From assembly GCA_944383885.1 (NCBI GenBank), contig CALWRF010000038.1, positions 62,001 to 126,000 of the forward strand: DNA of 64,000 nucleotides, read 5' to 3'. The notes beneath the pieces are model-generated. The model ran no database searches. It worked only from the letters and a program-made list of their open reading frames with translations, and was not told where the DNA came from. This document shows positions 11,962 through 50,210 of this stretch, piece after piece. This stretch comes from an uncultured Clostridia bacterium. GTDB taxonomy: Bacteria > Bacillota > Clostridia > Lachnospirales > Anaerotignaceae. The translations under genes were made by a program, and so were the position numbers. The stretch's first letter is position 1. Every line of letters starts with the position of its first letter.

Positions 11962-12008
11962 AAAGCCTGTATAGGGCAAACAGAACATTGGGAAATATAT
12001 TTAGCCGG

Positions 12009-12042
12009 ACGGTCAAAGGACGGTTGATGTCATTCGCTCCGT
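12009..12042 (+). repeat. Left arm of inverted repeat around type I toxin 1
   Basis: ACGGTCAAAG (12009-12018) and CGCTCCGT (12035-12042) recur inverted at 12215-12224 and 12191-12198 with the same arm length. The right arm bases read on the other strand lie at the 5' end of the antisense RNA. Confidence 0.7.
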
Positions 12043-12061
12043 ATTGGAGGGGGTGACGCTT

Positions 12062-12139: not shown

Positions 12140-12176
12140 CCGTCCTGCCCCGCAAAGTTAGAACGGTTATTTTTTA
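12136..12176. terminator. Bidirectional terminator at the end of toxin 1
   Basis: Arms 12136-12143 and 12163-12170 (ATAACCGT and complement) with U runs on both sides. It can end the toxin mRNA rightward. Confidence 0.7.
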
Positions 12177-12230
12177 ACAAGTTAACTTAAACGGAGCGGA
12201 TAGACTTCATCTATCTTTGACCGTCTTGTT
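12140..12230 (-). ncRNA. Predicted antisense antitoxin RNA for toxin 1
   Basis: Starts at the promoter below and runs left into the toxin 3' region, overlapping the toxin mRNA tail. The 3' end is not certain: it may stop at the shared hairpin (12136-12170) or further left. Prediction from promoter and layout only. Confidence 0.5.
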
Positions 12231-12236
12231 AAGTAT

Positions 12237-12265
12237 ATTATATTCTATTAGTTCAATTTTTTCAA
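12237..12265 (-). promoter_or_regulatory. Antisense RNA promoter for toxin 1
   Basis: Leftward -35 TTGAAA (12265-12260), 17-base spacer, perfect -10 TATAAT (12242-12237). No gene follows on this strand, so the product should be a non-coding antisense RNA. Confidence 0.65.
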
Positions 12266-12363
12266 CTGATATTTAAAATAAAAAGCCTCTAAGGATGTTC
12301 AGTTAAACCGCCCCTACGACCTTATAAACCTTATGAACTATGCTTGTATGAGTATGATTAAAT

Positions 12364-12399
12364 CGGACATGCTCGGACAGCTACGGACAATACCGGACA
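12364..12399 (+). repeat. Four tandem CGGACAnnnn repeats, 10-base period
   Basis: CGGACA at 12364, 12374, 12384 and 12394, each followed by four variable bases, about 170 bases before the integrase gene. The exact helical spacing suggests a row of protein-binding sites on one DNA face, for example arm-type sites of the integrase or sites for its excisionase. Confidence 0.6.
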
Positions 12400-12451
12400 A
12401 AAGTAAAAGCCCTTTGCGCTACCAACACAAAAGGCTTTACCGCTACATCTT

Positions 12452-12537
12452 ATTGCGCACAGGCGCAAGTGATATAGTACTAAGGTCAAAGTAATTATAT
12501 CACCTCAACGCCTGTTTGCGCAATAGGCGTTCTTTTT
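12452..12537 (+). promoter_or_regulatory. Structured leader and terminator before the integrase
   Basis: A long imperfect inverted repeat (12452-12475 with 12497-12524, ends ATTGCGCA and TGCGCAAT) overlaps a shorter perfect hairpin (AACGCCT 12507-12513 with AGGCGTT 12525-12531) followed by CTTTTT. The two folds exclude each other, which would allow attenuation of int. Confidence 0.5.
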
Positions 12538-12564
12538 ATACCCAAAAATAAGAGGTGATATTTT

Positions 12565-36035: not shown

Positions 36036-36209
36036 TAAATCAACTCCTTTATCTATAATTTATAATTAAATTATAAACTATAAAGAAGTAAATTCAATTA
36101 AAAATAAATAAAATAACAATATAAAATTATTGTTTTCCTAATTGTCCAATTTTTGTCTTGACAAATTGCATAATACTTATTATAATAATTAATGCTTTGA
36201 AAATATTGT

Positions 36210-36283
<74 letters not shown>

Positions 36284-36287
36284 TGTT

Positions 36288-36314
36288 AACGCCGTTTTAA
36301 ACGGCGTTTTTTTA
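36288..36314. terminator. Bidirectional terminator shared by tRNA-Arg and the phage operon
   Basis: AACGCCG (36288-36294) with CGGCGTT (36302-36308) and U runs on the right side. It stops the tRNA rightward and could end the leftward phage operon. Confidence 0.75.
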
Positions 36315-36848
36315 TGCGATTTCAGTATTTCTAATGCTGTCATGAGTATAAGAAGCGAGATTTTTATGAGTAAAATGTTTTAAAGTTATATGCTTGTTAA
36401 ATTTAAGCTTAATATTAATTGCCATATTGGCTGGTATAATATATCTTGAATAACTCTCTACAATATTGTATAAAAATTTAACACTTAACCCTAAATTAAT
36501 GTTAACTGAATATTCTCCATAATTAACTTCAAAATCATAATTGCCTTCACCGCATATATTGTTAAGATAGTTAATAAACATGTAATAAGTGTAAATAAAA
36601 TCATTGTTGTACTTAACTAAAAGAGCTGAACGCCGCACTTCCAAACTGTTTCCGCCGCTGCTAATTCCAAACATACTTTCATACCGTTTTAATCCTTCAT
36701 CATCAGCTGTTTTAATCCACTGATTTTTTTCAATATTACAAAATCTGTTCCATTCATCATTTAAAACTGTATTTTCAGCACCGTTAATAGCATTAATTTC
36801 ACTAAAGTCCCTTAAAAACTCAGGTAAATATTTTATGTACTCTTTCAT
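36312..36848 (-). CDS. XkdU-like baseplate protein (DUF2313)
   Basis: A 178-residue protein with the start KYLPEFLRDFSEINAINGAE typical of XkdU/YmfQ-type baseplate proteins that complete the wedge of a contractile tail. It overlaps the baseplate J gene by four bases. It is the last gene of the operon; the tail fibre that normally follows is absent. Slightly short for the family (about 190-200). Confidence 0.75.
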   Translation of the reverse strand: MKEYIKYLPEFLRDFSEINAINGAENTVLNDEWNRFCNIEKNQWIKTADDEGLKRYESMFGISSGGNSLEVRRSALLVKYNNDFIYTYYMFINYLNNICGEGNYDFEVNYGEYSVNINLGLSVKFLYNIVESYSRYIIPANMAINIKLKFNKHITLKHFTHKNLASYTHDSIRNTEIA

Positions 36849-37921
36849 ACATTTTCCACCGTCCCTAAAATAGGAATCTCGTCAGATTCAATAACAATAT
36901 TGTCTGTATTGTCATTTAACGTAATATCCTCAATATCAATTACACCATCAATCTCAAGAACTTTCATTTCAATACGGCTTTTCCTAACAGTTATGCTTCC
37001 TTCGTTTTCCCAGCCTTCTCGCAGTTCGCAAAAATACTCTTCTATCTTTTCCTTCACCTGTTCAACTATAAATTCAGTTTCAAAACCGCTTTCTAAAGTA
37101 AGAGTAAATTTAATATTAATAGCAACACTGTTTGCTGCCTCAACAGTAACATTGTGACCTATAGGCACAGCACCAATTCCGCTTCCTTTCGGCTGAGGGT
37201 CAACATATTCCTGAATATCTTCAATAAGCGTTCCCTCAGGTACATTATATCCGTTGTTTAATATAACAACCCTAACTGTGCCTCCGCCGTAATAAGCCGG
37301 AAACACTTTACAGCCTCCAACACCATCAATCTCTTTAAAAAGTCTTTTGTAGTCTTCAATATTGCCTCCAAACGCTTTCGTCTCAAAACTGTTAAAATAT
37401 CTCTTCCTTAAACTCTCGTCGCTTTCGGCTTCCTCACCATAAATTATAATGTCCGTTATCTCGGCTTTTAAAAGACCTTCTACATATTCAATAGGCAGTA
37501 TTGTACCTTTATATAAATTCCCGGCATTTCCTGCTTTTTCACATACCATCTTATAGCACCCGTCAGATATTTTTTCGGTAACAGCATAATCATTTCCTCC
37601 GCCGCTGAACCTTTCACCTGTATTAATGTTATTAATAAACTCCCCATTTTCACCAGTAAAAACAGCCTTAACAACGGCATTTGTCGCGTCATGTCTTTTA
37701 ATATTCCTCTCCCAAACCCTTCTGTCTAAATCCTCTCCTGTAGCTGTATCTGCAAATGTTCTGTTCATAAGCATTTCCATGTTCATATACATTTGAGCAC
37801 TCTCAGCGCTGTTTGGCGCTAAAGTATCATATATAATACTGCCCTGCCTTTTGTCCATGCTGTCATTAATAAGCTTCAGTTTTTCATTTAATAAATTCTC
37901 GTAAGTAAAGTTTTCATACAC
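36845..37921 (-). CDS. Baseplate J-like (XkdT) wedge protein
   Basis: A 358-residue baseplate J (gp47-type) wedge protein: DSMDKRQGSIIYDTLAPNS near the start, then FADTATGEDLDRRVWERNI and KAFGGNIEDYKRLFKEIDGV, typical of the family. It forms the hexagonal wedge around the hub. It starts at the stop of the XkdS-like gene (shared base) and runs into the XkdU-like gene. Confidence 0.88.
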   Translation of the reverse strand: MYENFTYENLLNEKLKLINDSMDKRQGSIIYDTLAPNSAESAQMYMNMEMLMNRTFADTATGEDLDRRVWERNIKRHDATNAVVKAVFTGENGEFINNINTGERFSGGGNDYAVTEKISDGCYKMVCEKAGNAGNLYKGTILPIEYVEGLLKAEITDIIIYGEEAESDESLRKRYFNSFETKAFGGNIEDYKRLFKEIDGVGGCKVFPAYYGGGTVRVVILNNGYNVPEGTLIEDIQEYVDPQPKGSGIGAVPIGHNVTVEAANSVAINIKFTLTLESGFETEFIVEQVKEKIEEYFCELREGWENEGSITVRKSRIEMKVLEIDGVIDIEDITLNDNTDNIVIESDEIPILGTVENV

Positions 37922-38319
37922 TAAATATCTGCCTCCATCTCAATTTGTATAATGCCTAAATTAGTAATAACATCAAATTTAATGCTCATTTTGTTAAAAT
38001 CTTTTTCAATAGCAAAATTTTCTATTTTCTCTATTCTGTTGTCAGCAAGAAGGGCGTCTTCTATGTATCCCTCAATAAGCATTTGGGCTTTAACCATATT
38101 GCTTCCTATAAGCTCGCTTATTTGAGAGCCGTAATTCCAGTCGTATATTTCAAAAGCATATCTTTTTGTGTCCAAAGTCTTGCGTATGGCCTGTTCAATA
38201 GCCGCTTTACCATCTATATATCCGTTTATCCTTTTGTTATTAAAATCAAGTAAATATGTTTTTGTAATATACCTGCTGTCTTCTGAAATAATATCCGACG
38301 AAATATTTTCAGGAACCAT
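37921..38319 (-). CDS. XkdS-like baseplate protein (DUF2634/gp25-like)
   Basis: A 132-residue protein of the XkdS family, equivalent to phage gp25 with its lysozyme-like fold at the core of the baseplate: KTYLLDFNNKRINGYIDG, then RYAFEIYDWNYGSQISELIG. It forms the sheath-baseplate joint. Adjacent to the baseplate J gene with stop and start overlapping. Confidence 0.85.
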   Translation of the reverse strand: MVPENISSDIISEDSRYITKTYLLDFNNKRINGYIDGKAAIEQAIRKTLDTKRYAFEIYDWNYGSQISELIGSNMVKAQMLIEGYIEDALLADNRIEKIENFAIEKDFNKMSIKFDVITNLGIIQIEMEADI

Positions 38320-38320
38320 T

Positions 38321-38731
38321 TTAAACCACCACCCTGTCTAAAACTAAAAAATTCTGTCCTCCTTGGATTCTTAAAAGAATAACCTTCTCGCCTTCTTTAA
38401 GCCCGAAATTTAATGTAACATCTTTCTGTCCAACTATTTTGTGGCTGTGTGAAGTATATGAGTTAGCGCTTTCCGTTGACATGTTAAAAGTTTCCTTAAC
38501 ACTTCTTTCAACAACACTGGAACAAAGCGTAATTTTGCTTTTGTCAATAATAAGCCTCTGGTCAGCCATAATAGTGAGCGGCTCCGTTTTGGTAACAATG
38601 CCAAACATAATTCTAACCGGGTCAGAAGCCTCATTTGCCTCAACAGATATTTTCCTTAATGCATTAATCAGTTCACCTGTAATAAATATCAGCTCCTTAA
38701 ATATGTACTCCCTCAGCTCCTGATTGAGCAT
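38321..38731 (-). CDS. XkdR-like baseplate protein (DUF2577)
   Basis: A 136-residue DUF2577 protein: PVRIMFGIVTKTEPLTIMADQ, DVTLNFGLKEGEKVILLRIQGGQ, FLVLDRV. In PBSX this is xkdR, a small OB-like baseplate subunit. It overlaps the preceding gene by 35 bases. Normal length. Confidence 0.8.
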   Translation of the reverse strand: MLNQELREYIFKELIFITGELINALRKISVEANEASDPVRIMFGIVTKTEPLTIMADQRLIIDKSKITLCSSVVERSVKETFNMSTESANSYTSHSHKIVGQKDVTLNFGLKEGEKVILLRIQGGQNFLVLDRVVV

Positions 38732-39569
38732 ATTCTATAATTTTATTTGCAATAGAGTCTATAATGCTTTCTTCGTCAGCCTCGTTGTATATGTTGGAAT
38801 AATTGTTAAGCGTAATATTAACATTTCCGCTTTCATAAGTCCTGCCATCATTTTCCAACCACTGTCCTGCTTTTGTATTTTTATTGTTGTTTAATGTCGA
38901 AAATTCATATTTATGATTTATCTTGGTATTAAAAAAATATTTTTTGTCCGTCTGTTTAATAACGCTTTGCAGCAATTCTTCTTCACTCTGCCGCTCATTA
39001 AATAAAATTCGGTTACGTTGCAGTATCTCATTTAAAATATTCCTGTCTTCAATAAATGCACTGCTGTAATTTTTACTTCTAACTATACCAGTGTTGCTTA
39101 AATGTGTGTTTTTCAGAAAATAATTATTATAAATCTCATCTTTTGGATAAAATATATTTTCTGTTAAAGTATCATTGTAACTATCCGTTTTTTTGTTTAA
39201 CATAATTCCGCCATCAAAAACATTCGTAATGTTTTCAGCCTCTTTCAGCCATGAATTATTTTCATTTTTGTAGTTTTCTTTACCAAAAAAGTTATAATTA
39301 TTTATATATTGAATATAGTTAATATCTTTCTTAAATATTTCATTTTTAACACCCAAACCGCTTTTATCACTGCTTTTTATTTCAAACTCTGTTAAAATAT
39401 TTTCATCTCTGTTTTTAATTGCAAATTCTGTTAAACCGCCTTCATAGTCTTCTGATTGCTGAAAAAACAAATTCCCAAAAAATTCATTGCCAAAAATCCC
39501 CATTATCTCCTCAATAAAAATTCTCTGCTTTAACAACTCGTCAAAAAACTTTTTAAGTTCGTCCGCCAA
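38697..39569 (-). CDS. Unrecognised 290-residue protein with tape-measure-like C-terminus
   Basis: 290 residues, TTG start after AGGTGGGA. The N-terminal part (KKFFDELLKQRIFIEEI) and the middle, rich in Asn, Lys and Phe, are not recognised. The last 45 residues (NVNITLNNYSNIYNEADEES, then IIDSIANKIIEYAQ) match the EAD-helix ending usual in tape-measure proteins of contractile phages. It sits between XkdQ- and XkdR-like genes, not where a tape measure normally lies. It may be a short tape measure or a baseplate protein sharing this end. Confidence 0.55.
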   Translation of the reverse strand: MADELKKFFDELLKQRIFIEEIMGIFGNEFFGNLFFQQSEDYEGGLTEFAIKNRDENILTEFEIKSSDKSGLGVKNEIFKKDINYIQYINNYNFFGKENYKNENNSWLKEAENITNVFDGGIMLNKKTDSYNDTLTENIFYPKDEIYNNYFLKNTHLSNTGIVRSKNYSSAFIEDRNILNEILQRNRILFNERQSEEELLQSVIKQTDKKYFFNTKINHKYEFSTLNNNKNTKAGQWLENDGRTYESGNVNITLNNYSNIYNEADEESIIDSIANKIIEYAQSGAEGVHI

Positions 39570-39582
39570 AATCCCACCTGCC

Positions 39583-40551
39583 TTAACTGTTTATAAGACC
39601 GCCTCTGAGAGATAAATCCATTGTATGTACTCCCATTTTAAACCTGTGCCTGCATGATTCAACTGTCATAGCTTCATCAATGACAATATCCCCCGTTTTG
39701 TCAGTTCTTATATAAATAATAGTACCGGCTCGGACATTAATGTCACCAAATGCCCCTGAAATACTTAAACTTCTTTTGGCTCTGCTGTGCGTATTTAAAA
39801 TACTCAAAGCTTTTTCGTTTCCGTCTTCACCTTCTTCAATGCTTCCTGTATATTGTAAAACGCCCCATTTTGAAACAGAATTCTCGTTTTTCTTAAAGTA
39901 TTCCTGTACAATGCCTTTCTTTCCTTTTAATGTAAGCCTAATCTGGTTATATGTGTCGCTGTCTATAGATGAGGTGTAACTTAAATCCTCCGCTGTGTCA
40001 TCTTTTACAATGTAGTTAGATGCCATATTTTCAGCTCTTTTTAAACTAAGCTTTCCAAAATCATCAAATAGTACATATAACTTTCCGGTGCTTAAATAAG
40101 TTGTGTCTATGGCTGACTGAATAATATCAAATAATGTTTTTTCATCTGAGGTCATGTTGTTTATAATAAAACCGCTTTCTTCAATGCTTCCGCAATTTAT
40201 TCTGTAATCAGATGCTATCTGCTTAATTATGCTCGAAACTGTAAAACCATTAAAATTATATGTAGCCTTATTTTTAAGATACCTGAGCTGGTCATAAGCG
40301 GTTACAGATATAATCCCTTCCTTGTTTCTTGTCTTTGTAAATACATAACCTAAAAAAATCGGAATGCTGTCAGCATAAATTTTTACTGTCGACCCTTCCG
40401 AAAAATCAATTATGCTGTCCTTAATAACATTAAAACACGCTTTCGACGGCATAGAGCTTCTGTATGTTTCAATATACATTTCACCTTCTAAAACAGGTAT
40501 GTACGCTCTCTTGTCGTTTGAATTTATAATTTCCATATAAATGTTACTCAA
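39583..40551 (-). CDS. XkdQ-like baseplate hub protein
   Basis: A 322-residue protein of the XkdQ/YqbQ family (gp27/gpD-like hub): EGEMYIETYRSSMPSKACFN, SVTAYDQLRYLKNKATY, SSIIKQIASDYRI, then RAKRSLSISGAFGDINVRAG. The hub closes the tube at the baseplate. It overlaps the LysM gene by eight bases. Confidence 0.88.
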   Translation of the reverse strand: MSNIYMEIINSNDKRAYIPVLEGEMYIETYRSSMPSKACFNVIKDSIIDFSEGSTVKIYADSIPIFLGYVFTKTRNKEGIISVTAYDQLRYLKNKATYNFNGFTVSSIIKQIASDYRINCGSIEESGFIINNMTSDEKTLFDIIQSAIDTTYLSTGKLYVLFDDFGKLSLKRAENMASNYIVKDDTAEDLSYTSSIDSDTYNQIRLTLKGKKGIVQEYFKKNENSVSKWGVLQYTGSIEEGEDGNEKALSILNTHSRAKRSLSISGAFGDINVRAGTIIYIRTDKTGDIVIDEAMTVESCRHRFKMGVHTMDLSLRGGLINS

Positions 40552-41179
40552 ACCTTATCACCTGCCCCGCGTGTATTAATGAAGGATTGTTTATGCCATT
40601 TATTTTAGCTATCTCATAGCACTTGGCGCCATCATTTAATTGGCTTTTGCATATATTCCATAGATTATCTCCATCTTTAACAACATAAGTTTTTGCCGGT
40701 GTTTTGGCGGTCTGCCTGCTTGCCTGATATGTGCCTATAATGCCGCTTATTTCTGAACTTTGAGCTGTTTTGTATTCCCTGAGCTTTATATCCAAAACCA
40801 CATCAAGCCCCTCACTTGCCTGCTCAATAACATTAAGCGCTTCAATTGTAACCATTTTTTTGGTAGTAAACCCCACTCTTTTGTATGGCAGCTTCTCCCT
40901 TACTATATAAAACATAACTGTCCTTTTTTCATTTATAATCTGCTCTAATTCGTAAATATATACAAACGGCTCTTTAAAACTGGTTAAATATCTTGCATAT
41001 GGCACATCTGCGCCGGGCAGCAATGCCTTAAAGCTGAATTCCATAAGCCCCGGAGTCCGTATCCTGCTTATTTCTTCCATATTAATAAGATTAACTGTAT
41101 CATTTTGACCTTTGTACAACCATGTTATTTTTTCCGGAGTAACTGGAAGTAAAATATCACCAATGTATACCGAATACAT
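40544..41179 (-). CDS. XkdP-like LysM baseplate protein
   Basis: A 211-residue protein with a C-terminal LysM domain (about 164-210: TYVVKDGDNLWNICKSQL, KINGINNPSLIHAGQVIRF). The N-terminus resembles XkdP/gp53-type baseplate components. The LysM likely contacts peptidoglycan or orients the hub. Ribosome site GGGAGG overlaps the stop of the -1 frame extension of the upstream chaperone gene. In other PBSX-like clusters the tape measure gene would sit just upstream; here it does not. Confidence 0.85.
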   Translation of the reverse strand: MYSVYIGDILLPVTPEKITWLYKGQNDTVNLINMEEISRIRTPGLMEFSFKALLPGADVPYARYLTSFKEPFVYIYELEQIINEKRTVMFYIVREKLPYKRVGFTTKKMVTIEALNVIEQASEGLDVVLDIKLREYKTAQSSEISGIIGTYQASRQTAKTPAKTYVVKDGDNLWNICKSQLNDGAKCYEIAKINGINNPSLIHAGQVIRFE

Positions 41180-41181
41180 TT

Positions 41182-41343
41182 TTAAACCTCCCTGTCTTTG
41201 CTTTTGTTCTCATAAATATCTAAGCAAGCCGCAATAAAAGCTTTTTCTTCTTTTGAAAGAGCCATAAATTCCGATGGGAACCTTCCAAATTTAAGGAGGA
41301 CAATATATGCGTATACCGCCTCAAAACTGCCCTCCTCAATTAG
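41182..41343 (-). CDS. -1 frameshift extension of the tail assembly chaperone
   Basis: 53 codons beginning CTA directly after the slippery A-AAA-AAC, in the -1 frame, ending just before xkdP-like. The peptide (LIEEGSFEAVYAYIVLLKFG, then MALSKEEKAFIAACLDIYEN) has no start codon with a ribosome site of its own. Together with residues 1-138 of the gene at 41340 this makes a 191-residue product, the same logic as gpG-GT in lambda and XkdN in PBSX-like phages. Confidence 0.75.
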   Translation of the reverse strand, partial: LIEEGSFEAVYAYIVLLKFGRFPSEFMALSKEEKAFIAACLDIYENKSKDREV

Positions 41344-41756
41344 TTTTTTGCTTCTTCAATCAAGTCCTGAGCCGCCTTGTCAAGACCGTTTATTTCTTTA
41401 ACTTTCTTAATGTACGCAATGTATTCTCCGGCAGAAAGCATTTCTTTAAGCAGAACATCCTCTCCCAAAACACCATAGCTGTTTTGCAGTTCTTCATCAA
41501 AAAGGTCAGGATAAACTGTTGAATATGCGGCTAATTTTCCAATATATCTGCTGTAATCAAAATCTTCAGTATATCCTCCGTTCTTTTTAGGCACTCGTTT
41601 AACGCACATGTCCCTTATTTTTTCTTCCTCATTGCCGCTTAAAGCGCGTATCTCCCACATAACCGGTTTACCATTATTTATAAAACCGCTGCTTGCAGCA
41701 TAAAAAACATTTTCTTTTTTTACTCTGTTTCTGTTTAAAAATAAATCCAGTTCCAT
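41340..41756 (-). CDS. XkdN-like tail assembly chaperone
   Basis: A 138-residue protein of the XkdN/gpG family: ELDLFLNRNRVKKENVFYAA, GFINNGKPVMWEIRALSGNE, RYIGKLAAYSTVYPDLFDEE, ending IEEAKN. It starts at ATG 41756 after GGAGGG; the earlier in-frame codons lie before that site. Such chaperones coat the tape measure during tail assembly. The last codons form a slippery A-AAA-AAC (41349-41343) for -1 frameshift into the extension. Confidence 0.8.
   Translation of the reverse strand: MELDLFLNRNRVKKENVFYAASSGFINNGKPVMWEIRALSGNEEEKIRDMCVKRVPKKNGGYTEDFDYSRYIGKLAAYSTVYPDLFDEELQNSYGVLGEDVLLKEMLSAGEYIAYIKKVKEINGLDKAAQDLIEEAKN
41343..41349 (-). promoter_or_regulatory. Slippery heptamer A-AAA-AAC for -1 frameshifting
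   Basis: In frame as GCA-AAA-AAC, directly before the TAA stop of the chaperone gene. After a one-base slip the next codon is CTA of the extension. Downstream, AGGAGG (41334-41329 region) can pair with CCTCCT about 30 bases later, a possible stimulatory stem. Confidence 0.75.
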
Positions 41757-41794
41757 ATTTCCCTCCAAAAATCTTATTAGTAACATATTAACAA

Positions 41795-41841
41795 CAAAAT
41801 ATAAAAACGGATAATCCCCTGCAAAACAGGGTTTTATCCGT
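41795..41841 (-). terminator. Terminator-like hairpin between tail tube and chaperone genes
   Basis: ACGGATAA/TTATCCGT plus inner CCCTG/CAGGG (41807-41821 and 41827-41841) followed leftward by UUUUUAUAUUUU. It lies inside the operon and would lower expression of the later genes relative to capsid, sheath and tube. Confidence 0.75.
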
Positions 41842-41874
41842 ATAAAATACTCTTTATAAGAGTCTTAAATAAAA

Positions 41875-42342
41875 TTACATTCCGGTAAGAGCAGTAAATT
41901 TTTCCGGCATTTCCCAATCCTCAAACGTAAAATTGTATTCTTCATCAAGAAATTTAGCTGTAGCGTCAAACTTAGCAATAACTCCGCCGTCAAGATTGCA
42001 GTCTTTAAGAATAACTGTCTGCCTTCCTACATCACTTGTAGGGTCTTCATTTGTAACCTGTATGTCAAAATACATGTCCTCGCCCTTTTCCTTAAACTTG
42101 TAAAGCAGTTCCCTGAAAACAGAACTGTTGTAGTGGAAAGTGGCTTTTCCAACTCCGCTCCAGCCTGTAGCCTTGTTTCCTTTGCCTGTCTTTCCAAGTA
42201 TGGGTACTTCCTGTTTTGTTTTTTTCATCTCAGCCTCAAGATTTATAGCTTGCATAAAATTGTATCTTTTTTTGTCTATTGTCACATAGCATTCCGCCAT
42301 GGACGCGCATATAGCGTCTTTCGCGTTCATAATCTGGCTCAC
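41875..42342 (-). CDS. Tail tube protein (XkdM-like)
   Basis: A 155-residue protein of the XkdM/gp19 tail-tube family: NAKDAICASMAECYVTIDKK, ATGWSGVGKATFHYNSSVFR, EEYNFTFEDWEMPEKFTALT. It polymerises into the inner tube inside the sheath. Adjacent to the sheath gene in the usual order. Followed by an internal terminator. Confidence 0.88.
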   Translation of the reverse strand: MSQIMNAKDAICASMAECYVTIDKKRYNFMQAINLEAEMKKTKQEVPILGKTGKGNKATGWSGVGKATFHYNSSVFRELLYKFKEKGEDMYFDIQVTNEDPTSDVGRQTVILKDCNLDGGVIAKFDATAKFLDEEYNFTFEDWEMPEKFTALTGM

Positions 42343-42363
42343 TTACTGCCACCTCCTTTAAAT

Positions 42364-43662
42364 TTAGTAAACAATAACCGTCATGTAAAGCTTTGCCATA
42401 GCGCAAACCGGCGTTACCGGATTAGTAACGGAAACTGTTTTTTTGTCATTTCCCAATTCAACTATCACATCATCAGGCTCAAAGCCCTCAATTACATTCA
42501 GCTTTAATAACTCCTTGTTGTATGTAACTATGTCATTCCAAAACGCCATGCGCCCTGAATTGTTGTTTTGTACTTTTCCAAGATAATATGTGTTGAACAT
42601 AACAGCAATATCGTTTCCTATCTGGTCAAGAAGCCTTATAACTTGATTCTCACCAAAATTCTTGTCCTTCCCGTCTTTAAATTCTGTAAAAGAATTGATG
42701 TCGTCAAGCACCCTGATGTCATCACCGTTTTTGTGCAGCATAAAACACCCATTTTCAATTCCCTCTTCAAGCTCACTCTGCTTGTACTGAGTAAATACGC
42801 CATATTCCCCGTCATAAAGCTTGTTTGTTAAACTTTCATTAATGTTGCAGCCAGCGCAGGCGCCTGTAACCCACCATACAAGACCATATTCTTCACCGTC
42901 AGTTGAATCATTAGCCAAATTAATAACTCCTTCATACTCAGCGGCATAGTCATGTATAACAGTCTGAAATTTGACACCGTAAGTATCGCGCATAGTCTGT
43001 GTGTACTGAGCATATAGCTTTTTAATTGTTTCATCATCACTTAAACACCCAAGATTATTAAAACTAACGCTCTCAAGTTTGTCCAAAAATTCCTGATGAG
43101 CTGACTCGTTTGCATTTCCGTTCTCACCGCCTGATAAACTTATTTTTTCTGATGCGGTAATAACTGCTTCATTGTTAAAAATAATAAACTCGTTGTCCTC
43201 TAATTCAGCGGCAGATGTAACTGTTTGGCTGTCAATAACACTACCATCAATGCTTGTTTCAACTATGTACTTTTCCTCACTGCCTGTAACACTAATTGAA
43301 ATATCATTTCCCCTTGTACCGCCGTATCTTGCCTTGCCCAATTCACAGCTGGCTTGAGTACCTTTGTTAAGCCTGTAAAAATAAACTGTCTGGGCATTTA
43401 TAAAAATGTCTCTCATGCCTTTAAGCTTTTCGCTTGTATATGCGTATCCAAATAAGCTCATGCTGTCAGTTAAAAATTCTTCCGCTGTTACCGCGAAAAT
43501 CTCGTTTTCTTTGCCCCAATCCATTTCACACGCAATAGCCGCATAACCTCTGTCGCTTATATTAGCGTTAGAGCTTGAGGCACTAACAAAGTTAATGTAG
43601 CTTCCTGGAAGCACTTTGTTCTGAATTAAAAAGTTTCCGCCTCCTAATGCCAATTTTTTCAC
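42364..43662 (-). CDS. Phage tail sheath protein
   Basis: A 432-residue contractile sheath protein (XkdK-like). N-terminal PGSYINFVSA and C-terminal TYLGKVQNNNSGRMAF, ending with the conserved core VTNPVTPVCAMAKLYMTV. The sheath contracts to drive the tube into a target cell. It overlaps the upstream connector by four bases. Length is normal for Gram-positive PBSX-type phages. Confidence 0.9.
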   Translation of the reverse strand: MKKLALGGGNFLIQNKVLPGSYINFVSASSSNANISDRGYAAIACEMDWGKENEIFAVTAEEFLTDSMSLFGYAYTSEKLKGMRDIFINAQTVYFYRLNKGTQASCELGKARYGGTRGNDISISVTGSEEKYIVETSIDGSVIDSQTVTSAAELEDNEFIIFNNEAVITASEKISLSGGENGNANESAHQEFLDKLESVSFNNLGCLSDDETIKKLYAQYTQTMRDTYGVKFQTVIHDYAAEYEGVINLANDSTDGEEYGLVWWVTGACAGCNINESLTNKLYDGEYGVFTQYKQSELEEGIENGCFMLHKNGDDIRVLDDINSFTEFKDGKDKNFGENQVIRLLDQIGNDIAVMFNTYYLGKVQNNNSGRMAFWNDIVTYNKELLKLNVIEGFEPDDVIVELGNDKKTVSVTNPVTPVCAMAKLYMTVIVY

Positions 43663-44075
43663 TCTCCTTCAATTAAATCAAGTTTTTCCATTAATTCATA
43701 TCTGCCTTCGCCAAACCTTCCGCTCATACCGTAAACAGCCTTAAATTTGTAACTTCCTTCTTTATTCTCCAATTGTAAATCAAAAGCATTTATATACCCG
43801 TCAGAACATTCTACCGTTTTAACAGCGTTAAATACATTTTGAGCAACAGAATTAATGTTTTGATTAAGCTTTTCATTTATAATCAAATCAATTTCAAATT
43901 CATAATACGCAATACATCGGTTCATAGGCAGAAAATTATATTTTGTCCCTTTGTGCAGTATAAAAAAACAAGGTCTTTTTAAACCTTGCTCAATGCTTTC
44001 GGTATAAATATTGTATTTATCACCAAATTCCTTATATAAAGATTCGGCAATGCCGTTTGCAATGCTTCTTTCCAT
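43659..44075 (-). CDS. Tail terminator/completion protein (DUF6838, XkdJ-like)
   Basis: A 138-residue DUF6838-like protein, GIAESLYKEFGDKYNIYTES, then KRPCFFILHKGTKYNF. It sits between the head closure protein and the sheath, the place of tail terminator proteins. A ribosome site is weak. The usual gp10-like (XkdI) connector between this and the previous gene is missing. Confidence 0.7.
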   Translation of the reverse strand: MERSIANGIAESLYKEFGDKYNIYTESIEQGLKRPCFFILHKGTKYNFLPMNRCIAYYEFEIDLIINEKLNQNINSVAQNVFNAVKTVECSDGYINAFDLQLENKEGSYKFKAVYGMSGRFGEGRYELMEKLDLIEGE

Positions 44076-44090
44076 AAGATTTCCACCTCT

Positions 44091-44453
44091 TTACGGGTTT
44101 TTATCATATATGATAACCTCAACCTCTTGATGAAATGAATATACCCTGCTTTGGGAAGCCCCTCTAAAACTCCGGCTTTCGCCATTTCGATAAACTGTAA
44201 ATATGTCACCGCTTTCAATTTTATATTCAATAGGGAGGAATAATTTAATTTTAAGCTCTGTTTTAAATGCAGTAGGGGTTTCTTCATTAGGCTTGCTTGT
44301 TAAATAGCTTATTCTGCACATTACATCATTGTATACATCATATAAAACGGCATTGCTGATTCCCATTTCATTTTTTTCAAACCTGTAGCGTTTAATGTCA
44401 CACCTGTCATTAAATAAAGCTTCGGCGCTTTTTTGTAACTTTCTCAGCTCCAT
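44091..44453 (-). CDS. Head-tail joining protein (XkdH/gp16-like)
   Basis: A 120-residue head closure protein with a beta-rich C-terminal part (IESGDIFTVYRNGESRSFRG). It overlaps the upstream connector by 10 bases. Position and length fit the gp16/XkdH class that seals the portal after packaging. The assignment is by position and general pattern more than by specific motif. Confidence 0.6.
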   Translation of the reverse strand: MELRKLQKSAEALFNDRCDIKRYRFEKNEMGISNAVLYDVYNDVMCRISYLTSKPNEETPTAFKTELKIKLFLPIEYKIESGDIFTVYRNGESRSFRGASQSRVYSFHQEVEVIIYDKNP

Positions 44454-44788
44454 TTTATTCTCCTAAAAGGCATCATTCTCTTTTCATAATTTTTAACACC
44501 GCTTAAACCATACTGCTCATATAACATATCTCCAAAAGACATAGATATATCTCCTTCAGTAATACTCTTAAGTCTTCCGCCTTCATATTCTCCACTGTAC
44601 TGCCCGCTTTTAAAAATATCAACAGCCATGTCAATAACAGTATTTTCAAGCCCTTCTGGTATGCTTTCAATTCCGCAGTAATTTTTTATAATGCTTATGG
44701 CACTGTCAAGGGAATACTCTAAATTAAAATCATCATTTTCAGCCCTGCATATTTCCTTAACTTTTATCAGTAATGTTTCCCTGTCCAA
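44444..44788 (-). CDS. Head-tail connector (gp6/gp15-like)
   Basis: A 114-residue, mostly helical protein: DRETLLIKVKEICRAENDD, YCGIESIPEGLENTVIDMAV, typical of the gp6/YqbG adaptor family that sits under the portal. It lies right after the capsid gene with three bases between, its normal place. Confidence 0.75.
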   Translation of the reverse strand: MDRETLLIKVKEICRAENDDFNLEYSLDSAISIIKNYCGIESIPEGLENTVIDMAVDIFKSGQYSGEYEGGRLKSITEGDISMSFGDMLYEQYGLSGVKNYEKRMMPFRRIKWS

Positions 44789-44791
44789 AGC

Positions 44792-45670
44792 TTATTCCCC
44801 CGCACGGCTGCTTAAATATATGCCTTTTGCTTTGTTGTCATAAACAAAAGCATCGTGATATAACCTGAACTGGAAAAGCCATGCGTCAAGCTTCTGGTTT
44901 TCGTCAGGAGAAAATATTTTAGGCATAACAAATTTCTTAGTCTGTACAACAGCTTGCGGATACATCATAATAAAGTTAATTTCATTTCCGTCTGTGTCTT
45001 TGACAAATCCCCAGCTGTCAGTACCGTTATTAAGCTTTATTTTTGTGTAAAATCTTGTCTTAGGCACGTATATAACATTCATGTTGTTGTACCTGTTAAT
45101 AACAGTGTTGGCGTCTTCCTCATTTGTCCATTGTCTTGTTAAAGCAGAGTTTAATACAGGTTTTAAATCGCTGTTAACAAATAAAACCCTTCCTTCTAAA
45201 GGCACCTCATTTTCATCTAAAGTCATAGCCGCTTTGTCAATAGCGCCTATAATAGTGTCTTTTGTAAGTGTTTCTTCGTTAGATGTAATGCCGCTTGCGG
45301 AAGCATACTTAGCAAATCTGTAAGCGTCAAGTTCAGGAATAACCCATTCTCTCATAAAATTTCCTGTAACTGTGCCAAAAACCATTCCCAATGTTTCTTC
45401 ATCATCCATACGGTCTATGGAAATTTCCTTTCCCCTCTCCTGCGTAAGCTTCATTGTCTCCCAAGTAGCTGTTATGTCGCCTTTAGGATATCCGTTTGCT
45501 CTTGAGTATGTACCAAGACCGGTTGTTGAAACTTTAAGCACTTTAATTTCATTGGCGCCTGAAAAATCCGCCATAGTGCTGCTGTCAAGGCTTTCTGTAA
45601 CTGATTCTGTCTTGTAGATTTCATCTACAATAGGTAAAAATTTAGTTGCGTATTCAATGGAATTTGCCAT
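44792..45670 (-). CDS. Major capsid protein
   Basis: A 292-residue HK97-fold capsid protein: YATKFLPIVDEIYKTESVTE, LGTYSRANGYPKGDITATWE, DRMDDEETLGMVFGTVTG, MREWVIPELDAYRFAKYAS. It follows the scaffold gene. No N-terminal scaffold/protease domain; a separate scaffold protein is encoded upstream. Normal size for SPP1/PBSX-type heads. Confidence 0.88.
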   Translation of the reverse strand: MANSIEYATKFLPIVDEIYKTESVTESLDSSTMADFSGANEIKVLKVSTTGLGTYSRANGYPKGDITATWETMKLTQERGKEISIDRMDDEETLGMVFGTVTGNFMREWVIPELDAYRFAKYASASGITSNEETLTKDTIIGAIDKAAMTLDENEVPLEGRVLFVNSDLKPVLNSALTRQWTNEEDANTVINRYNNMNVIYVPKTRFYTKIKLNNGTDSWGFVKDTDGNEINFIMMYPQAVVQTKKFVMPKIFSPDENQKLDAWLFQFRLYHDAFVYDNKAKGIYLSSRAGE

Positions 45671-45684
45671 TTAATAACCTCCTT

Positions 45685-46161
45685 TTATTTTCTAATTCCG
45701 GCTGCGCGCAAAGCGCTTTCCATAAACTGCCTGTCAGATTTTTTTCTTCTTTCCTTAACTGCTCCCGTACCCTCAACTTTTTGGCTTATTTCTTTAAAAA
45801 GATACGGCGCGCTCTCTTTTATTCGCGTAATATCAACACCTGTAACTCTTCCGTTTTCGTCTTTAATAATATCCTCATCATTTAAAAGAGCGCCTATTGC
45901 TTTGGCGTTTCTTCCGCCCTGCTCTAAAATATCCTTTTCAATAATCGCCTGCGCCTTTTCATTTTCAAAGTTTTCCTTTAAATCATTAATTTCTTTTTCA
46001 TATCTTGATATTACAGAATCATACTCACTTTTCGGAACTTTTTCATCTTCACCATCAGTTAAAGTAAAATTTTCGTCAATGTATTCGCAAATCATCTCAA
46101 AAAGTTCCTCACTGCTTTGGCAGTTTTCAATTAAATCCTCAAGCCATGCGTATTTTTCCAT
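45685..46161 (-). CDS. Capsid scaffolding protein
   Basis: A 158-residue acidic, coiled-coil-rich protein (YDSVISRYEKEINDLKENFE) with a short basic C-terminus ending RQFMESALRAAGIRK, as in scaffolding proteins of Gram-positive phages. It lies between portal and capsid genes. The start is ATG 46161, after GGAGGTG; the upstream in-frame GTG overlaps that site. Confidence 0.78.
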   Translation of the reverse strand: MEKYAWLEDLIENCQSSEELFEMICEYIDENFTLTDGEDEKVPKSEYDSVISRYEKEINDLKENFENEKAQAIIEKDILEQGGRNAKAIGALLNDEDIIKDENGRVTGVDITRIKESAPYLFKEISQKVEGTGAVKERRKKSDRQFMESALRAAGIRK

Positions 46162-46208
46162 GCTTTTCACCTCCTTTAAATAAAATATCCCGCCTCCCGC
46201 CCATTTTT

Positions 46209-47681
46209 TTATTCTTTTCCACCTTTTGCTTCACTCTCAGCTAAGGCATATTCCTCCATTGAAATCTCCTCGACAAACGGATGCATGCTTAAAAGCGTTT
46301 CATCGCTTAATATGCCTTTTGATTTTTCAATCATCTCAACTGTTTCATAATCATTCGTAACAGCATTCCTTTTCAAAGCAACTTTAATAATAGAAGCATC
46401 ATAATCAGTTCCGTTTTTCCTGTTGTAGTCCTCTATCATATAACCTATAATCTCTTTAATGCATTGCTTTAATTTAACAGCAACGCTGCTGGCTTTAAGC
46501 TCTAAAAGCGTGTACTGAAATTTAAGTGAAACACCGCTGGGTGAATTTCCCAACGCCTCACGGTCAGTATCAACACCCTGACCAAACTCAAATATGTCTT
46601 TCCTAAGACGCTTTAAAAATTCAAGCCTTCCGCTCATTGAAAGCTCTACCTGTCTTGCCTCCACATTTCCGCTGCTGTCGGTAATGTTAACAGCCTTGTT
46701 AATTTGTAACTTCTTTGATATGGCAGAAGCCGTGTCGCCACCATATCCCTGTATAACCCAGTAAAGCTCAACCAAATCAATAATGTTGTTTGTTCCTTCA
46801 CTGGATATAAGGTCGTAAGCATCAATTAGTCCCTTTACCGCCTCTAAATCAGTTGTTTCTTTGTAATTATTTTTCAGTATAATAAAAGGAACTTTTCCCC
46901 AGCTGTTGGCTTTGCGGCTTTTCTCAAATCCGTCTTCTGTAGCTACACCCCACCAGTGAGGCGATGGATTTTGCTTTATTGAACTGTCCAAAACAAAATT
47001 CCTGCTGTCGTCCTCAATAAAATATGTAACATCATCTTTTGTCCACCACTCAACCCTCTTTCTTAAATACCTGCTGCCGTTTCTGATAACAGCCGTATCG
47101 TAATATCTTATAAGCTGCTCCAAATCCTTTTCATGCTCGCTGTCATAAATAGGTATAATTTCATCAGCCGGTATAACACAGTACCTTAATGCGCCTTCTT
47201 TGTCATAATAAATATGCAGGGCTTCACAGCCTTTGTTGCTGGCGCCTGTCAAAAGCTCCTGTAAAACCTCGTTAAAATCTTCCCCTGTAAAATCCTCAAC
47301 AGCTCTTTCAAAATCCTCATCTTTTTCCATGCCCTGCCTGTAATTAATTTTAATAACAGGCTTCCTTCCAATTAAGTATGAAACTTTCTGGTCAACAAGT
47401 ATTCTGTGAAAACAGTTTACGTTGTGATGATTGCTTCTGTTTGGATTAGTAAACTTTGTAATTTTTTCTTCCCCGTCAATATTTTCGGAAATACAGCTCT
47501 GCCTAAAATCTTTCTTTAATATGTCGTGCTCATAGGCGTAATACCTTTCTCCTTCAATCATCTTTTTCTTTTTTTCGCAGTTCTGGTCTTCTTTAATTAT
47601 GTATTTCAGTACGTCGCTTTCATTAATTCTGCTGTCAGATGTCAATTTAGCGTTAATTAAATCATTTTCGGTTAAATACAT
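46209..47681 (-). CDS. Portal protein (SPP1 Gp6-like)
   Basis: A 490-residue portal of the SPP1 Gp6 family: RYYAYEHDILKKDFRQ, NPNRSNHHNVNCFHRILVDQ, KVSYLIGRKPVIKINY, and helices LRKDIFEFGQGVDTDREA plus SGVSLKFQYTLLELKASSVA. A dodecamer at the capsid vertex through which DNA is pumped. Follows terL with a four-base gap. Confidence 0.9.
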   Translation of the reverse strand: MYLTENDLINAKLTSDSRINESDVLKYIIKEDQNCEKKKKMIEGERYYAYEHDILKKDFRQSCISENIDGEEKITKFTNPNRSNHHNVNCFHRILVDQKVSYLIGRKPVIKINYRQGMEKDEDFERAVEDFTGEDFNEVLQELLTGASNKGCEALHIYYDKEGALRYCVIPADEIIPIYDSEHEKDLEQLIRYYDTAVIRNGSRYLRKRVEWWTKDDVTYFIEDDSRNFVLDSSIKQNPSPHWWGVATEDGFEKSRKANSWGKVPFIILKNNYKETTDLEAVKGLIDAYDLISSEGTNNIIDLVELYWVIQGYGGDTASAISKKLQINKAVNITDSSGNVEARQVELSMSGRLEFLKRLRKDIFEFGQGVDTDREALGNSPSGVSLKFQYTLLELKASSVAVKLKQCIKEIIGYMIEDYNRKNGTDYDASIIKVALKRNAVTNDYETVEMIEKSKGILSDETLLSMHPFVEEISMEEYALAESEAKGGKE

Positions 47682-47685
47682 TTAA

Positions 47686-48921
47686 TTACCTCACTTTCAC
47701 CATGCTCATGTCAAATTGCCTTGAATACCTTACAGCGTCAATAGAGTGGTTGTTCCTGTCAGGAAAATATGCCCTAAACCCGCCTTCTTTGTCTTTGTCC
47801 AGTTCGTACTCAGTAAATTCCCTTGCTGTAAAAGGACATCTGTCAGGGTCAATTATTATCTCCTCCATGTTCTGCAGCCATTTTATGCCATACTCAACAC
47901 TTCCGGGACCTTTTTTCGCCGCAATGGCATTTATGCCGAAATAATTAAGCTCAGCTATACTCTTAGGCTCTGCACTGTCGCATATAATAACATTGTTTTC
48001 TTTGTTTTCCCGCTTTATAAGTTCACTTGCTTTTATGTTGCTTAATCCGGCTTTGTGTATTTCAAAAAAAATAAATAGCTTTTTTCTTGTCCTGTCATAG
48101 TGATTAACTGTGTAGTGCAGCGGGTCTGTGGCATATCCCCAGTCAAGTCCTCTTGAAACCCTGTCAAAACTTTCTATCTCTTCATCTGTAATTTTTCTAA
48201 GCGTTATATTGGAAAAAACTTCTCCGCCCGTTCCTGTAGCTTTTCCCATATATTCGTGTTCATAGGAAATCCTGTTTGTATTTTTAAGATGCTCCGCTTC
48301 AATAAAAAACTGCTCCCCCAGCCATTTAACAGGAACATCTTTGTAATTGCTGTAATATACTTTCTTTCCCTTCTGCTTTTTTAAAGCCTCCCTGTTTATC
48401 CAATTGGAAATACTCTGAGGCGGATTATATGAATAAAAAACACAAAACTTTTCTCCGCCCCTCATAAGTGACTGGTTTATATTTCGTATCTCTTCTGCCG
48501 AATCAAACTCATCGGCTTCCTCAAACCAAATATATTTTGCATATCCATTCTTAAACTTTATAGACTTAATCTTTCCCGGGTCGTCACAGCCTTTAAAAAT
48601 TATCTTCTGCCCCGTTTCTTTCAACGTCAAATAAAATGGCGGCGAAAGTTTTTTCTCCCATAACTCATCAGCGTCTAAAGCTTCAATAGCCCAAATCATC
48701 TGCTCTAAAACACTGTCCCTTATGCTGTTTTGTACTTTCCTGAATATAATGGCATTAGCGTTTTTGTCACACATAATGCCTAATATAATTTCTATTGAGA
48801 TAAATGAGGACTTGCAGCTCCCCCTGCCGCCTTTAAACCAATAATGCGTGTACCGGCATTTTTCTATATCCCTGTGAGCATTATAAAATGCCGGCGCTAT
48901 CAGCTCACTAAGCCTTGCCAT
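47686..48921 (-). CDS. Terminase large subunit (PBSX family)
   Basis: A 411-residue packaging motor. ATPase: Walker A GGRGSCKSS (31-39) and Walker B YIWFEEADEF (130-139). Nuclease: D260 in RGLDWGYATDP, then ICDSAEPKSI and the C-terminal NHSIDAVRY. All motifs are present, so the enzyme could cut and package DNA. The start is ATG 48921 with GAAGGTGA upstream and overlaps the small subunit by 14 bases. The sequence family uses headful packaging in PBSX and SPP1 relatives; this is inference here. Confidence 0.9.
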   Translation of the reverse strand: MARLSELIAPAFYNAHRDIEKCRYTHYWFKGGRGSCKSSFISIEIILGIMCDKNANAIIFRKVQNSIRDSVLEQMIWAIEALDADELWEKKLSPPFYLTLKETGQKIIFKGCDDPGKIKSIKFKNGYAKYIWFEEADEFDSAEEIRNINQSLMRGGEKFCVFYSYNPPQSISNWINREALKKQKGKKVYYSNYKDVPVKWLGEQFFIEAEHLKNTNRISYEHEYMGKATGTGGEVFSNITLRKITDEEIESFDRVSRGLDWGYATDPLHYTVNHYDRTRKKLFIFFEIHKAGLSNIKASELIKRENKENNVIICDSAEPKSIAELNYFGINAIAAKKGPGSVEYGIKWLQNMEEIIIDPDRCPFTAREFTEYELDKDKEGGFRAYFPDRNNHSIDAVRYSRQFDMSMVKVR

Positions 48922-49258
48922 AATTTTCACCTTCACTTTTCGGTATGTCGTCAATAATCTGAATCATTGCCGGCTTGCTTTTAACTTCGGATAAAGATTT
49001 TTCATTTTTATATTTGCCTTTCAGCTCAAAATAAAGCTTAATAGCCTGTATGTTTCCCTCCGCGCACTGATTTAATAAGCTTTTCCATACGCCTGTCATC
49101 GCGCTGAAAGTTTTGCCGTTAAGTATCAAATCCATGTACTGCCTGAAACTTTCTTCTGCAAGCCATGTGTAAAGCAAATCAGCAGTAATGCTGTACTGAA
49201 AGCAGATATCCTCAAGAGTGCCGTCATAACTTATATCCGTAAGCGCATCAGCAACCAT
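48908..49258 (-). CDS. Terminase small subunit-like DNA-binding protein
   Basis: 116 residues from ATG 49258: SYDGTLEDICFQYSITADLL (HTH), YTWLAEESFRQYMDLILNG, then AIKLYFELKGKYKNEKS, as in phBC6A51-type small terminases. The family usually begins with LTxxQK; here the in-frame upstream codons read KKLTKRQK before the ATG, without ATG/GTG/TTG start and with GGGGTG before an ATA codon. The real start may be non-canonical. Confidence 0.75.
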   Translation of the reverse strand: MVADALTDISYDGTLEDICFQYSITADLLYTWLAEESFRQYMDLILNGKTFSAMTGVWKSLLNQCAEGNIQAIKLYFELKGKYKNEKSLSEVKSKPAMIQIIDDIPKSEGENYGKA

Positions 49259-49317
49259 TTTCTGCCTTTTAGTTAGTTTTTTTATTTTAACACCCCATTT
49301 AATTTTAAAATTAAAGA

Positions 49318-49405
49318 AAATAAAAAACAGGTTTTGTTCGCATGCCCTTACTTTTTCTATAAGCTCTGTACTTCAGCTTTCAGCATGTATTAAAACCTGT
49401 TTTAC
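49318..49405 (-). promoter_or_regulatory. Nested-stem terminator-like RNA at the head of the structural operon
   Basis: Outer perfect 12-base stem AAAACAGGTTTT/AAAACCTGTTTT (49392-49403 and 49324-49335), inner GCATG/CATGC (49383-49387 and 49341-49345), and innermost AAGCT/AGCTT (75-79 and 61-65 of 493xx), with U-rich tract leftward. It lies between the regulator gene and terS and looks like an attenuator for the late genes. Confidence 0.6.
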
Positions 49406-49472
49406 CAATATTCATAATTTTTTATGGTATAATAATATCATAAAAGTACGTCCCTTGGGTGACCCTTTTTAA

Positions 49473-49883
49473 TCAAACATCTTTATTTCTAATACAGTAA
49501 AGTTTGTAAAAGAACAGCTTTCTCTTGTCATAAAACTGTCTTCTTCCGCAAGGTACGTTTAACACTTCGTATGGTATTCCTTCAGTCACATTTTTAATAA
49601 TATATTTGTATAACTGCTCATCTGCTTCCTTAGCCGCGTTTTCAATCATCTCAATGTCACTTTTAATTTTAATCATTTGCTTTGCCGTCTCAAAAGTTTT
49701 GTCAGAAATATTTCCTTTAACACTAACAGGTGCAAATCTAACAGCTTTAGGTCCGTATCCATACTTTATAAACTTCTTTTTTTCGTTGTACTGCATGCAA
49801 AAGTACTCCAATTCCTTGTACGCGTAGTCTGATATGTTAAATTCCTTCATGTCAATTTTTCTTTTGTCTGCCAAAAACAGCAC
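49473..49883 (-). CDS. Phage late-gene regulator-like protein (ArpU-like)
   Basis: 136 residues: EFNISDYAYKELEYFCMQYN, KQMIKIKSDIEMIENAAKEA, then YEVLNVPCGRRQFYDKRKLF, the pattern of ArpU/RinA-type regulators that turn on the late genes of Gram-positive phages. It lies directly upstream of the terminase operon. ATG variants exist (an inner MKEFN start). Between it and terS lies the attenuator-like hairpin and a GGGTCACCC palindrome (near 49458-49466). Confidence 0.6.
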   Translation of the reverse strand: MLFLADKRKIDMKEFNISDYAYKELEYFCMQYNEKKKFIKYGYGPKAVRFAPVSVKGNISDKTFETAKQMIKIKSDIEMIENAAKEADEQLYKYIIKNVTEGIPYEVLNVPCGRRQFYDKRKLFFYKLYCIRNKDV

Positions 49884-49894
49884 CCCCTGCCATC

Positions 49895-50143
49895 TTACTT
49901 TTCATCATTTCCAGAACCTTCCCCGCCTATAATAAAGTATTTGTTAATATCAACCGGCTCCATGTTGAATAATTTAACCATGTGCTTCATTTCATTGATG
50001 TTAAGCAAAGTATAGCCATTAAGCTTGTTGTTAATCGCATCAATGCTTATTCCCAATTCATCTGAAAGCTTCTTATAGGAAATGTTCTTTTTTTTCAAAA
50101 ATTTTTTCAGTTCCCTCAATTCTGCATATTTTCTTTTTTTCAA
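49895..50143 (-). CDS. XRE-family HTH regulator
   Basis: An 82-residue HTH-XRE protein (ISYKKLSDELGISIDAINNK, residues 20-39). First gene of the phage operon, with a gap of 11 bases to the next regulator. The promoter in front carries a palindrome over the -35 box, so it probably controls itself and the particle operon. Confidence 0.8.
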   Translation of the reverse strand: MKKRKYAELRELKKFLKKKNISYKKLSDELGISIDAINNKLNGYTLLNINEMKHMVKLFNMEPVDINKYFIIGGEGSGNDEK

Positions 50144-50169: not shown

Positions 50170-50210
50170 AACTTACCATAACAACAGCACAGTGTCAACA
50201 CGTTTCGTGT
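50170..50210 (-). promoter_or_regulatory. Promoter and operator of the phage-particle regulators
   Basis: Leftward -35 TTGACA (50198-50193), 17-base spacer, -10 TAAGTT (50175-50170). The palindrome ACACG-TTT-CGTGT (50198-50210) abuts the -35 box, a likely site for the XRE regulator. Confidence 0.65.

Follow-up and report, generated by a model that had tools for sequence, protein, structure and literature searches.

A probable domesticated, split-regulon, PBSX-derived contractile particle with a mini tape measure in a family of Clostridia

The 64,000-nucleotide stretch analyzed here (hereafter, the window) covers positions 62,001 to 126,000 of contig CALWRF010000038.1 in assembly GCA_944383885.1, from an uncultured Clostridia bacterium of the family Anaerotignaceae, and contains, at positions 36312-50143, a compact array of genes for a phage-like particle with a contractile tail. 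The evidence presented below makes it likely that this locus encodes a domesticated, vertically inherited particle derived from a PBSX-like phage, with a split regulon in which unlinked fiber and lysis cassettes carry the same promoter element as the particle operon; this assessment applies to neither of the functions considered below taken singly. A sequence-only reading of the window had offered three explanations, a trimmed prophage, a PBSX-like killer particle or a gene transfer agent (GTA). A domesticated particle is supported and a dying prophage rejected, but that reading overlooked that the tape measure is missing, that the regulon is split and that toxin genes exist. Throughout, G000 denotes the window's own genome, G000 to G005 make up its genus (g1), and other G numbers are other genomes compared; most of the genomes are fragmented metagenome assemblies.

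Profile searches against Pfam and PHROG recovered all the genes that had been claimed for the locus, on the minus strand throughout and without internal stops, so that the PBSX-type head, packaging, sheath, tube and baseplate genes are indeed intact (Table 1). From the regulator end, the order is reg82, reg136, terS, terL, portal, scaffold, capsid, two adaptors, tail terminator and sheath, followed by tube, xkdN, xkdP, xkdQ, orf290, the DUF2577 gene, xkdS, xkdT and xkdU; the set and order of the tail genes are those of PBSX. The two regulators that had been noticed, an 82-residue helix-turn-helix (HTH) protein and a 136-residue phrog_11237 protein, are both present. In an alignment of nine loci, TerL has kept its Walker A motif, GGRGSCKSS, with a deviation of one residue in G057, and its three nuclease aspartates are invariant. 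A tRNA-Arg(acg) gene lies 27 nt beyond xkdU, and host genes are found outside the locus on either side. No integrase, replication, fiber or lysis gene was detected within 36312-50143, as had been stated, and no integrase in the 36-51 kb region. The reported absence of an attachment repeat also holds: the 3' end of the tRNA gene occurs once in the window, and nothing beyond a 12-nt chance match joins the two boundaries of the locus. An Rfam scan yielded only tRNAs. The locus combines phage-derived structural and packaging genes with the lack of replication and integration genes, as GTAs do; it lacks the integrase and attachment repeats of an active prophage, and possesses the head and terminase that a tailocin lacks.

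The capsid gene was found in five of the six genomes of the genus, including that of the window, and the gene order is identical in four of the five congeners; no copy of the locus was found in G005. The same layout was detected in G045 (on a partial contig), G047, G054-G056 and G057, that is, in four further genera, or five genera of the family altogether. The locus was counted in 9 genomes of the family besides that of the window. When 392 genomes sampled from the order were searched, nothing closer than ~45% to xkdQ was found outside the family. In G000, G001, G002, G003 and also G047, which belongs to another genus, tRNA-Arg(acg) and deoD come next after xkdU, so that the search for the same gene set at the same site, which the sequence-only reading had proposed, reveals a boundary common to two genera. 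The particle loci form a single, fully supported clade, and their pairwise distances correlate with those of host rpoB (r = 0.865, increasing to 0.915 when G057 is omitted; Mantel p = 0.0002; G023 was excluded from the host comparison), so that the particle has diversified along with its host. For related loci with full tails from the same family, the correlation with the host is real but weak (r = 0.39, p = 0.004). Among the viral contigs searched, the sole close relative was one 4.4-kb fragment, and viral contigs were accordingly rejected as a source of free relatives.

The proposed test of selection on the structural genes was also run. In the comparisons of G000 with G002 and with G003, where dS was computable, orf290 had a dN/dS of 0.28-0.62 and all other particle genes lay at 0.008-0.22, indicating strong purifying selection; the dS values were similar to those of the host genes on either side or slightly higher. 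Among the genes under the strongest constraint are those for TerL, portal and capsid (dN/dS 0.03-0.06). No frameshifts were found in the particle genes of relatives. Vertical inheritance under purifying selection, a property of GTAs, is thus observed for this locus, which points to a domestication of ancient date.

The statement that lysis and fiber genes are lacking holds for the locus but not for the genome. A search for endolysins led to unlinked cassettes of fiber, small proteins, holin and M15 endolysin, which contain no head or tail genes, and the conserved block upstream of terS recurs upstream of these cassettes. A whole-genome search with 22 positions of this element, allowing at most one mismatch, identified exactly two sites in each of G000, G001 and G002, where they precede terS and a cassette, respectively; three sites in G003 (the particle operon and two cassettes); and three in G004 (particle operon, cassette and, with one mismatch, a third gene). 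The particle-free G005 has no sites, and the control, the reversed pattern, gave none in any genome. Both lysis and fiber genes are carried by such cassettes in congeners, and lysis genes alone were found in G000, where the endolysin gene of the cassette runs over the contig end. Directly upstream of the element in the particle locus is the gene for reg136, which would be the activator of the late genes. The genes of a GTA usually lie at more than one locus (PMC11841831); here, several loci are joined by the shared promoter element, and their common control appears probable. PBSX-like elements include their lysis and fiber genes; in the present system, these are unlinked in g1 and G047 and located in the locus, after xkdU, in G055, G056 and G057. 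In the window's genus, no fiber or lysis gene follows xkdU, with the exception of a fiber gene start in G004.

Two further signals concern the regulator at the edge of the locus. The sequence of reg82 is 55-87% identical in the remaining g1 loci and G047, and the palindrome overlapping the TTGACA box is kept in G002 and G003 and, less exactly, in G001 and G004; in the loci scanned, it occurs solely upstream of reg82.

Several observations were made alongside. Two of the fiber-lysis cassettes (L173, G001:C9; L178, G004:C70) have a serine recombinase gene on one side and, on the other, a truncated gene for a transporter-like solute-binding protein, as if a small element had been inserted. Two further species of the family have a PBSX-like tail locus behind the same promoter element (L080, G030:C1:856000-875999; L085, G035:C1:889000-908999); no portal, capsid or terminase gene was seen in the stretch examined, and this locus looks like a tailocin. 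The window's own genome also contains a full-tail PBSX-like phage locus (L028, G000:C8, 13177 bases), the capsid of which shares ~69% identity with the capsid of the window locus and which is ~93% identical overall to a locus in G003. A candidate second operon, G003:C146 with G002:C59, was dropped as being, most likely, the end of a full-length phage.

In G047, the block before terS is a different variant, which was found at five sites in this genome and at none in 11 other genomes (up to three mismatches; controls, 0). The sites precede terS, a gene for a 286-residue fiber, a gene for a holin-like protein with a GH25 endolysin, and the genes for two proteins of 477-485 residues. Given that the variant precedes the particle operon, the fiber gene and the lysis genes, the control element differs between the genera yet marks the same gene classes. 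One of the two 477-485-residue proteins has a C-terminal Ntox44 domain (PF15607, 1.3e-9), and its paralogue is 79% identical to the one scanned. The third element-bearing gene of G004 encodes a homologue of the N-terminal part of these two G047 proteins (~37% identity, 1e-21; the N-terminal parts in the two genera are 35-38% identical, E ~1e-20); in G000, no homologue was found in the ~0.8 Mb of 2.4 Mb scanned. Both Ntox44-type genes (L258 and L259, on contigs C3 and C9 of G047) are followed by a gene for a small membrane protein; a GH25 lysozyme gene closely precedes one of the two.

PBSX-like phages carry a long tape measure gene between xkdN and xkdP. In the window, this gap is only ~160 nt long and encodes just the frameshift extension of xkdN, so that there is no long XkdO-type tape measure in this place. 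Related full-tail loci have a tape measure of 321-960 residues in the canonical position and no gene between xkdQ and xkdR, whereas the particle loci have, between xkdQ and xkdR, a protein of 200-445 residues, represented in the window by the 290-residue product of orf290. This protein matches nothing in Pfam, PHROG or NCBIfam, and its AlphaFold model, with a mean pLDDT of 34, is uninformative. Its 43-44 C-terminal alignment columns, however, are flush with the ends of long tape measures of class B (hhalign probability 95.9 when 7 sequences were used, 97.4 when 11 were used), and G057, the most distant member, encodes a 164-residue protein of similar make in the canonical tape-measure place. 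This C-terminal homology, together with the position, indicates that orf290 encodes a relocated mini tape measure, the ends of which are conserved and the middle of which is not. Between G000 and G003, only 30 of 167 residues in the middle are identical (dN ~0.97, dS ~1.17), whereas the C-terminus has a dN of 0.13, and a role as a ruler is suggested because a spacer free in sequence lies between fixed ends. None of the mini rulers contains a membrane-like segment: their maximum 19-residue hydropathy is 0.16-1.0, compared to 2.1-3.6 in long tape measures. At the tape-measure scale of 0.15 nm per residue, 290 residues would correspond to a tail of approximately 45 nm. A PBSX-like locus in G059 (L077, contig C2) has a tape measure of 321 residues in the normal place (11577-12542 of the reverse complement), without a membrane segment and with a hydropathy of 1.05, possibly an independent shortening.

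In the scheme that we propose, reg82 would keep the system off and, upon relief, reg136 would act at the shared element, so that the particle operon and the distant cassettes are switched on in concert. TerL would fill the head with DNA, probably that of the host because the locus has no replication genes; the 290-residue ruler and the frameshifted chaperone would set a contractile tail of ~45 nm; and holin and endolysin would lyse the producer, releasing the particles.

Several points weigh against a domesticated, split-regulon particle. The particle is known here from genes alone. TerS retains an HTH-like domain (HTH_Tnp_1_2, 4e-11), unlike the TerS of the type found in FpGTA, the GTA of Faecalibacterium. 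The particle tree places G045 differently from the host tree, at a node with moderate support (85), and the operon of G004 is located at a different site, with the start of a fiber gene right after xkdU. Among the cassettes, that behind the second element site of G000 consists of a small gene, holin and endolysin, with no fiber; a second G000 cassette is cut by a contig end before the promoter region; the fiber gene is broken in one cassette of G003; and the serine recombinase and truncated transporter genes flanking the site denoted X indicate that the cassettes could be prophage remnants.

With regard to function, our leading guess, which we hold only tentatively, is that the particle moves host DNA from kin to kin in the manner of a GTA; that TerL, portal and capsid are so constrained favors packaging as a part of the function. 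Killing of competitors in the manner of PBSX is a close second possibility, given that toxin genes belong to the same regulon in some relatives, and competition is favored by these toxins as well as by the tail locus of G030 and G035 behind the same element. As a killer, the particle would bind relatives and kill them by contraction, the packaged DNA being a by-product. The PBSX-like gene families and order fit this possibility, as does the fact that PBSX packages host DNA and yet acts as a killing agent (PMC12946183); so do the two Ntox44 proteins of the G047 regulon, each with its small membrane protein, the N-terminal homologue behind the element in G004, and the element before the G030 and G035 tail loci, adjoining which no head genes were seen. 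Such strong constraint on TerL, portal and capsid would, however, be unexpected if packaging were a by-product, and no particle fiber was found in the window's own genome.

Less probable by far is a contractile "headed injector" that combines a split regulon, DNA packaging and a co-regulated polymorphic toxin and that would carry the toxin and/or kin DNA; in this rather unlikely reading, the tape measure is reduced to an end anchor and a sequence-free spacer. We regard as slightly more doubtful still a particle with head or tube loaded with Ntox44 proteins that are injected into the target. The two G047 toxin genes share the element, the G004 gene is homologous over the N-terminal part, and the N-terminal parts are alike in the two genera, but no loading signal was identified, release by lysis alone is conceivable, and there is neither a toxin gene in the locus nor a homologue in the scanned part of the window's own genome.

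A satellite-like element that borrows fiber and lysis functions from a co-resident full-length phage is very unlikely: although most particle genomes hold a related full-tail locus (G000_C8, G001_C1, G002_C27, G003_C71, G045_C120 and G047_C3), the promoter element is not on the phage of the window's own genome (neither of the two G000 sites is on C8), and the locus has a fixed chromosomal place and no integrase or replication module. Least probable of all is a trimmed or decaying prophage, to which the position directly against the 3' end of a tRNA gene, where prophages classically integrate, the lack of integrase and replication genes and the fiber and lysis genes retained in the locus in G055, G056 and G057 might point, but which is rejected because of the presence in one place across genera, the purifying selection and the lack of frameshifts and of an attachment repeat, along with the shared regulon, so that the earlier judgment against random decay is borne out.

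Compared to known systems, the domesticated particle that we favor resembles PBSX, with which it shares the head, tail and baseplate gene families and their order. Like the window locus, PBSX has an HTH regulator plus a second regulator; it also has a long tape measure. The window locus differs in having a relocated 290-residue ruler instead of an xkdO-type tape measure and in the unlinked lysis and fiber genes joined by the shared promoter element. FpGTA is similar in its Gram-positive gut host and in having a structural and packaging operon apart from a fiber-holin-endolysin operon, but is probably podovirus-like with no visible tail, whereas the window system has contractile tail genes (PMC12946183). 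The TerS of FpGTA has no obvious DNA-binding domain, a trait that is neither universal nor defining on its own and that is not found here, and FpGTA particles and their DNA have been observed (PMC12946183). Because the window TerS keeps its HTH-like domain, and packaging and transfer are surmised from gene content, we describe the system as similar to the GTA/PBSX group and do not claim membership among the GTAs. RcGTA of Rhodobacter capsulatus likewise has a short tape measure (~216 residues described) and a short tail, but this is a siphovirus-like non-contractile tail, and DNA transfer has been shown (PMC7296036). R-type tailocins and diffocin-type sheaths (6gkw, 8v3t) share the XkdK-type contractile sheath family, but R-type tailocins have no head or terminase, both of which are conserved in the window locus. 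PBSX-like loci of another family (L098, L101, L103 and L107, in G264, G164, G121 and G249, respectively) have their genes in scrambled order, with xkdK, M, S, T and U first and then a TerL-like gene between xkdN and xkdQ. We found no description of the present system in the open-access literature searched, an absence that does not prove novelty.

Table 1. Features of the particle locus and its boundary, in window coordinates
Feature	Position	Strand	Evidence or remark
tRNA-Arg(acg)	36209..36284	+	ARAGORN; locus boundary, deoD next; boundary shared by G001, G002, G003, G047
XkdU type, Mu gp48-like	36312..36848	-	PF10076 3e-17
XkdT type, baseplate J	36845..37921	-	PF04865 2e-57
XkdS type, sheath initiator	37921..38319	-	PF10934 6e-23
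XkdR type, DUF2577	38321..38731	-	PF10844 7e-21
orf290, relocated mini tape measure, no membrane segments	38697..39569	-	C-terminal homology, G057 position
XkdQ type baseplate hub, YQBQ	39583..40551	-	PF24032 1e-92
XkdP type, LysM baseplate protein	40544..41179	-	phrog_380 1e-46, LysM
-1 frame extension of xkdN, ~54 aa, long chaperone form	41182..41343	-	open and conserved in 8/8 loci
Slippery heptamer A AAA AAC, end of xkdN	41343..41349	-	present in 8 loci; A AAA AAA in G047
XkdN-type tail assembly chaperone	41340..41786	-	PF08890 2e-39
Tail tube, XkdM type, DUF2001	41875..42342	-	PF09393 3e-51
Contractile sheath, XkdK type	42364..43662	-	phrog_279 4e-115
Tail terminator	43659..44075	-	PF20765 3e-15
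Head-tail adaptor, XkdI place	44091..44453	-	phrog_615 2e-20
Head-tail adaptor, XkdH place	44444..44788	-	phrog_132 2e-18
Major capsid protein	44792..45670	-	phrog_422 4e-81
Scaffold, Phage_scaffold	45685..46170	-	PF06810 1e-10
Portal, SPP1_portal	46209..47681	-	PF05133 1e-86
terL, large terminase, Terminase_3/3C	47686..48954	-	PF04466 1e-31, PF17288 4e-13
terS, small terminase; true start likely a little further upstream	48908..49258	-	phrog_24579 1e-15, HTH_Tnp_1_2 4e-11
Shared late promoter element (putative) GGGTCACCCAAGGGACGTACTTTTATGATATTAT	49432..49465	-	whole-genome pattern search
reg136, 136 aa, predicted late-gene activator	49473..49883	-	phrog_11237
reg82, 82-aa Cro/C1-type HTH regulator, probable repressor	49895..50143	-	HTH_26 1e-6, HTH_3 1.5e-5
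Palindrome ACACGAAACGTGT overlapping TTGACA box, immediately upstream of reg82, putative operator/promoter	50193..50210	-	conservation

Only two Gram-positive GTA-like systems are named in PMC12946183, PBSX and FpGTA. If the interpretation presented here is correct, the particle would be a further such system, with a contractile tail, conserved among several genera of a Clostridia family, some members of which were isolated from the gut. Scattered parts are a known obstacle to recognizing GTAs (PMC11841831), and the promoter element would provide a simple way to locate such parts. The regulon would be directly testable in a relative with a nearly closed genome (Lachnospiraceae bacterium NSJ-143, which is G001), and the mini ruler may offer a natural test of the minimum length of a contractile tail.

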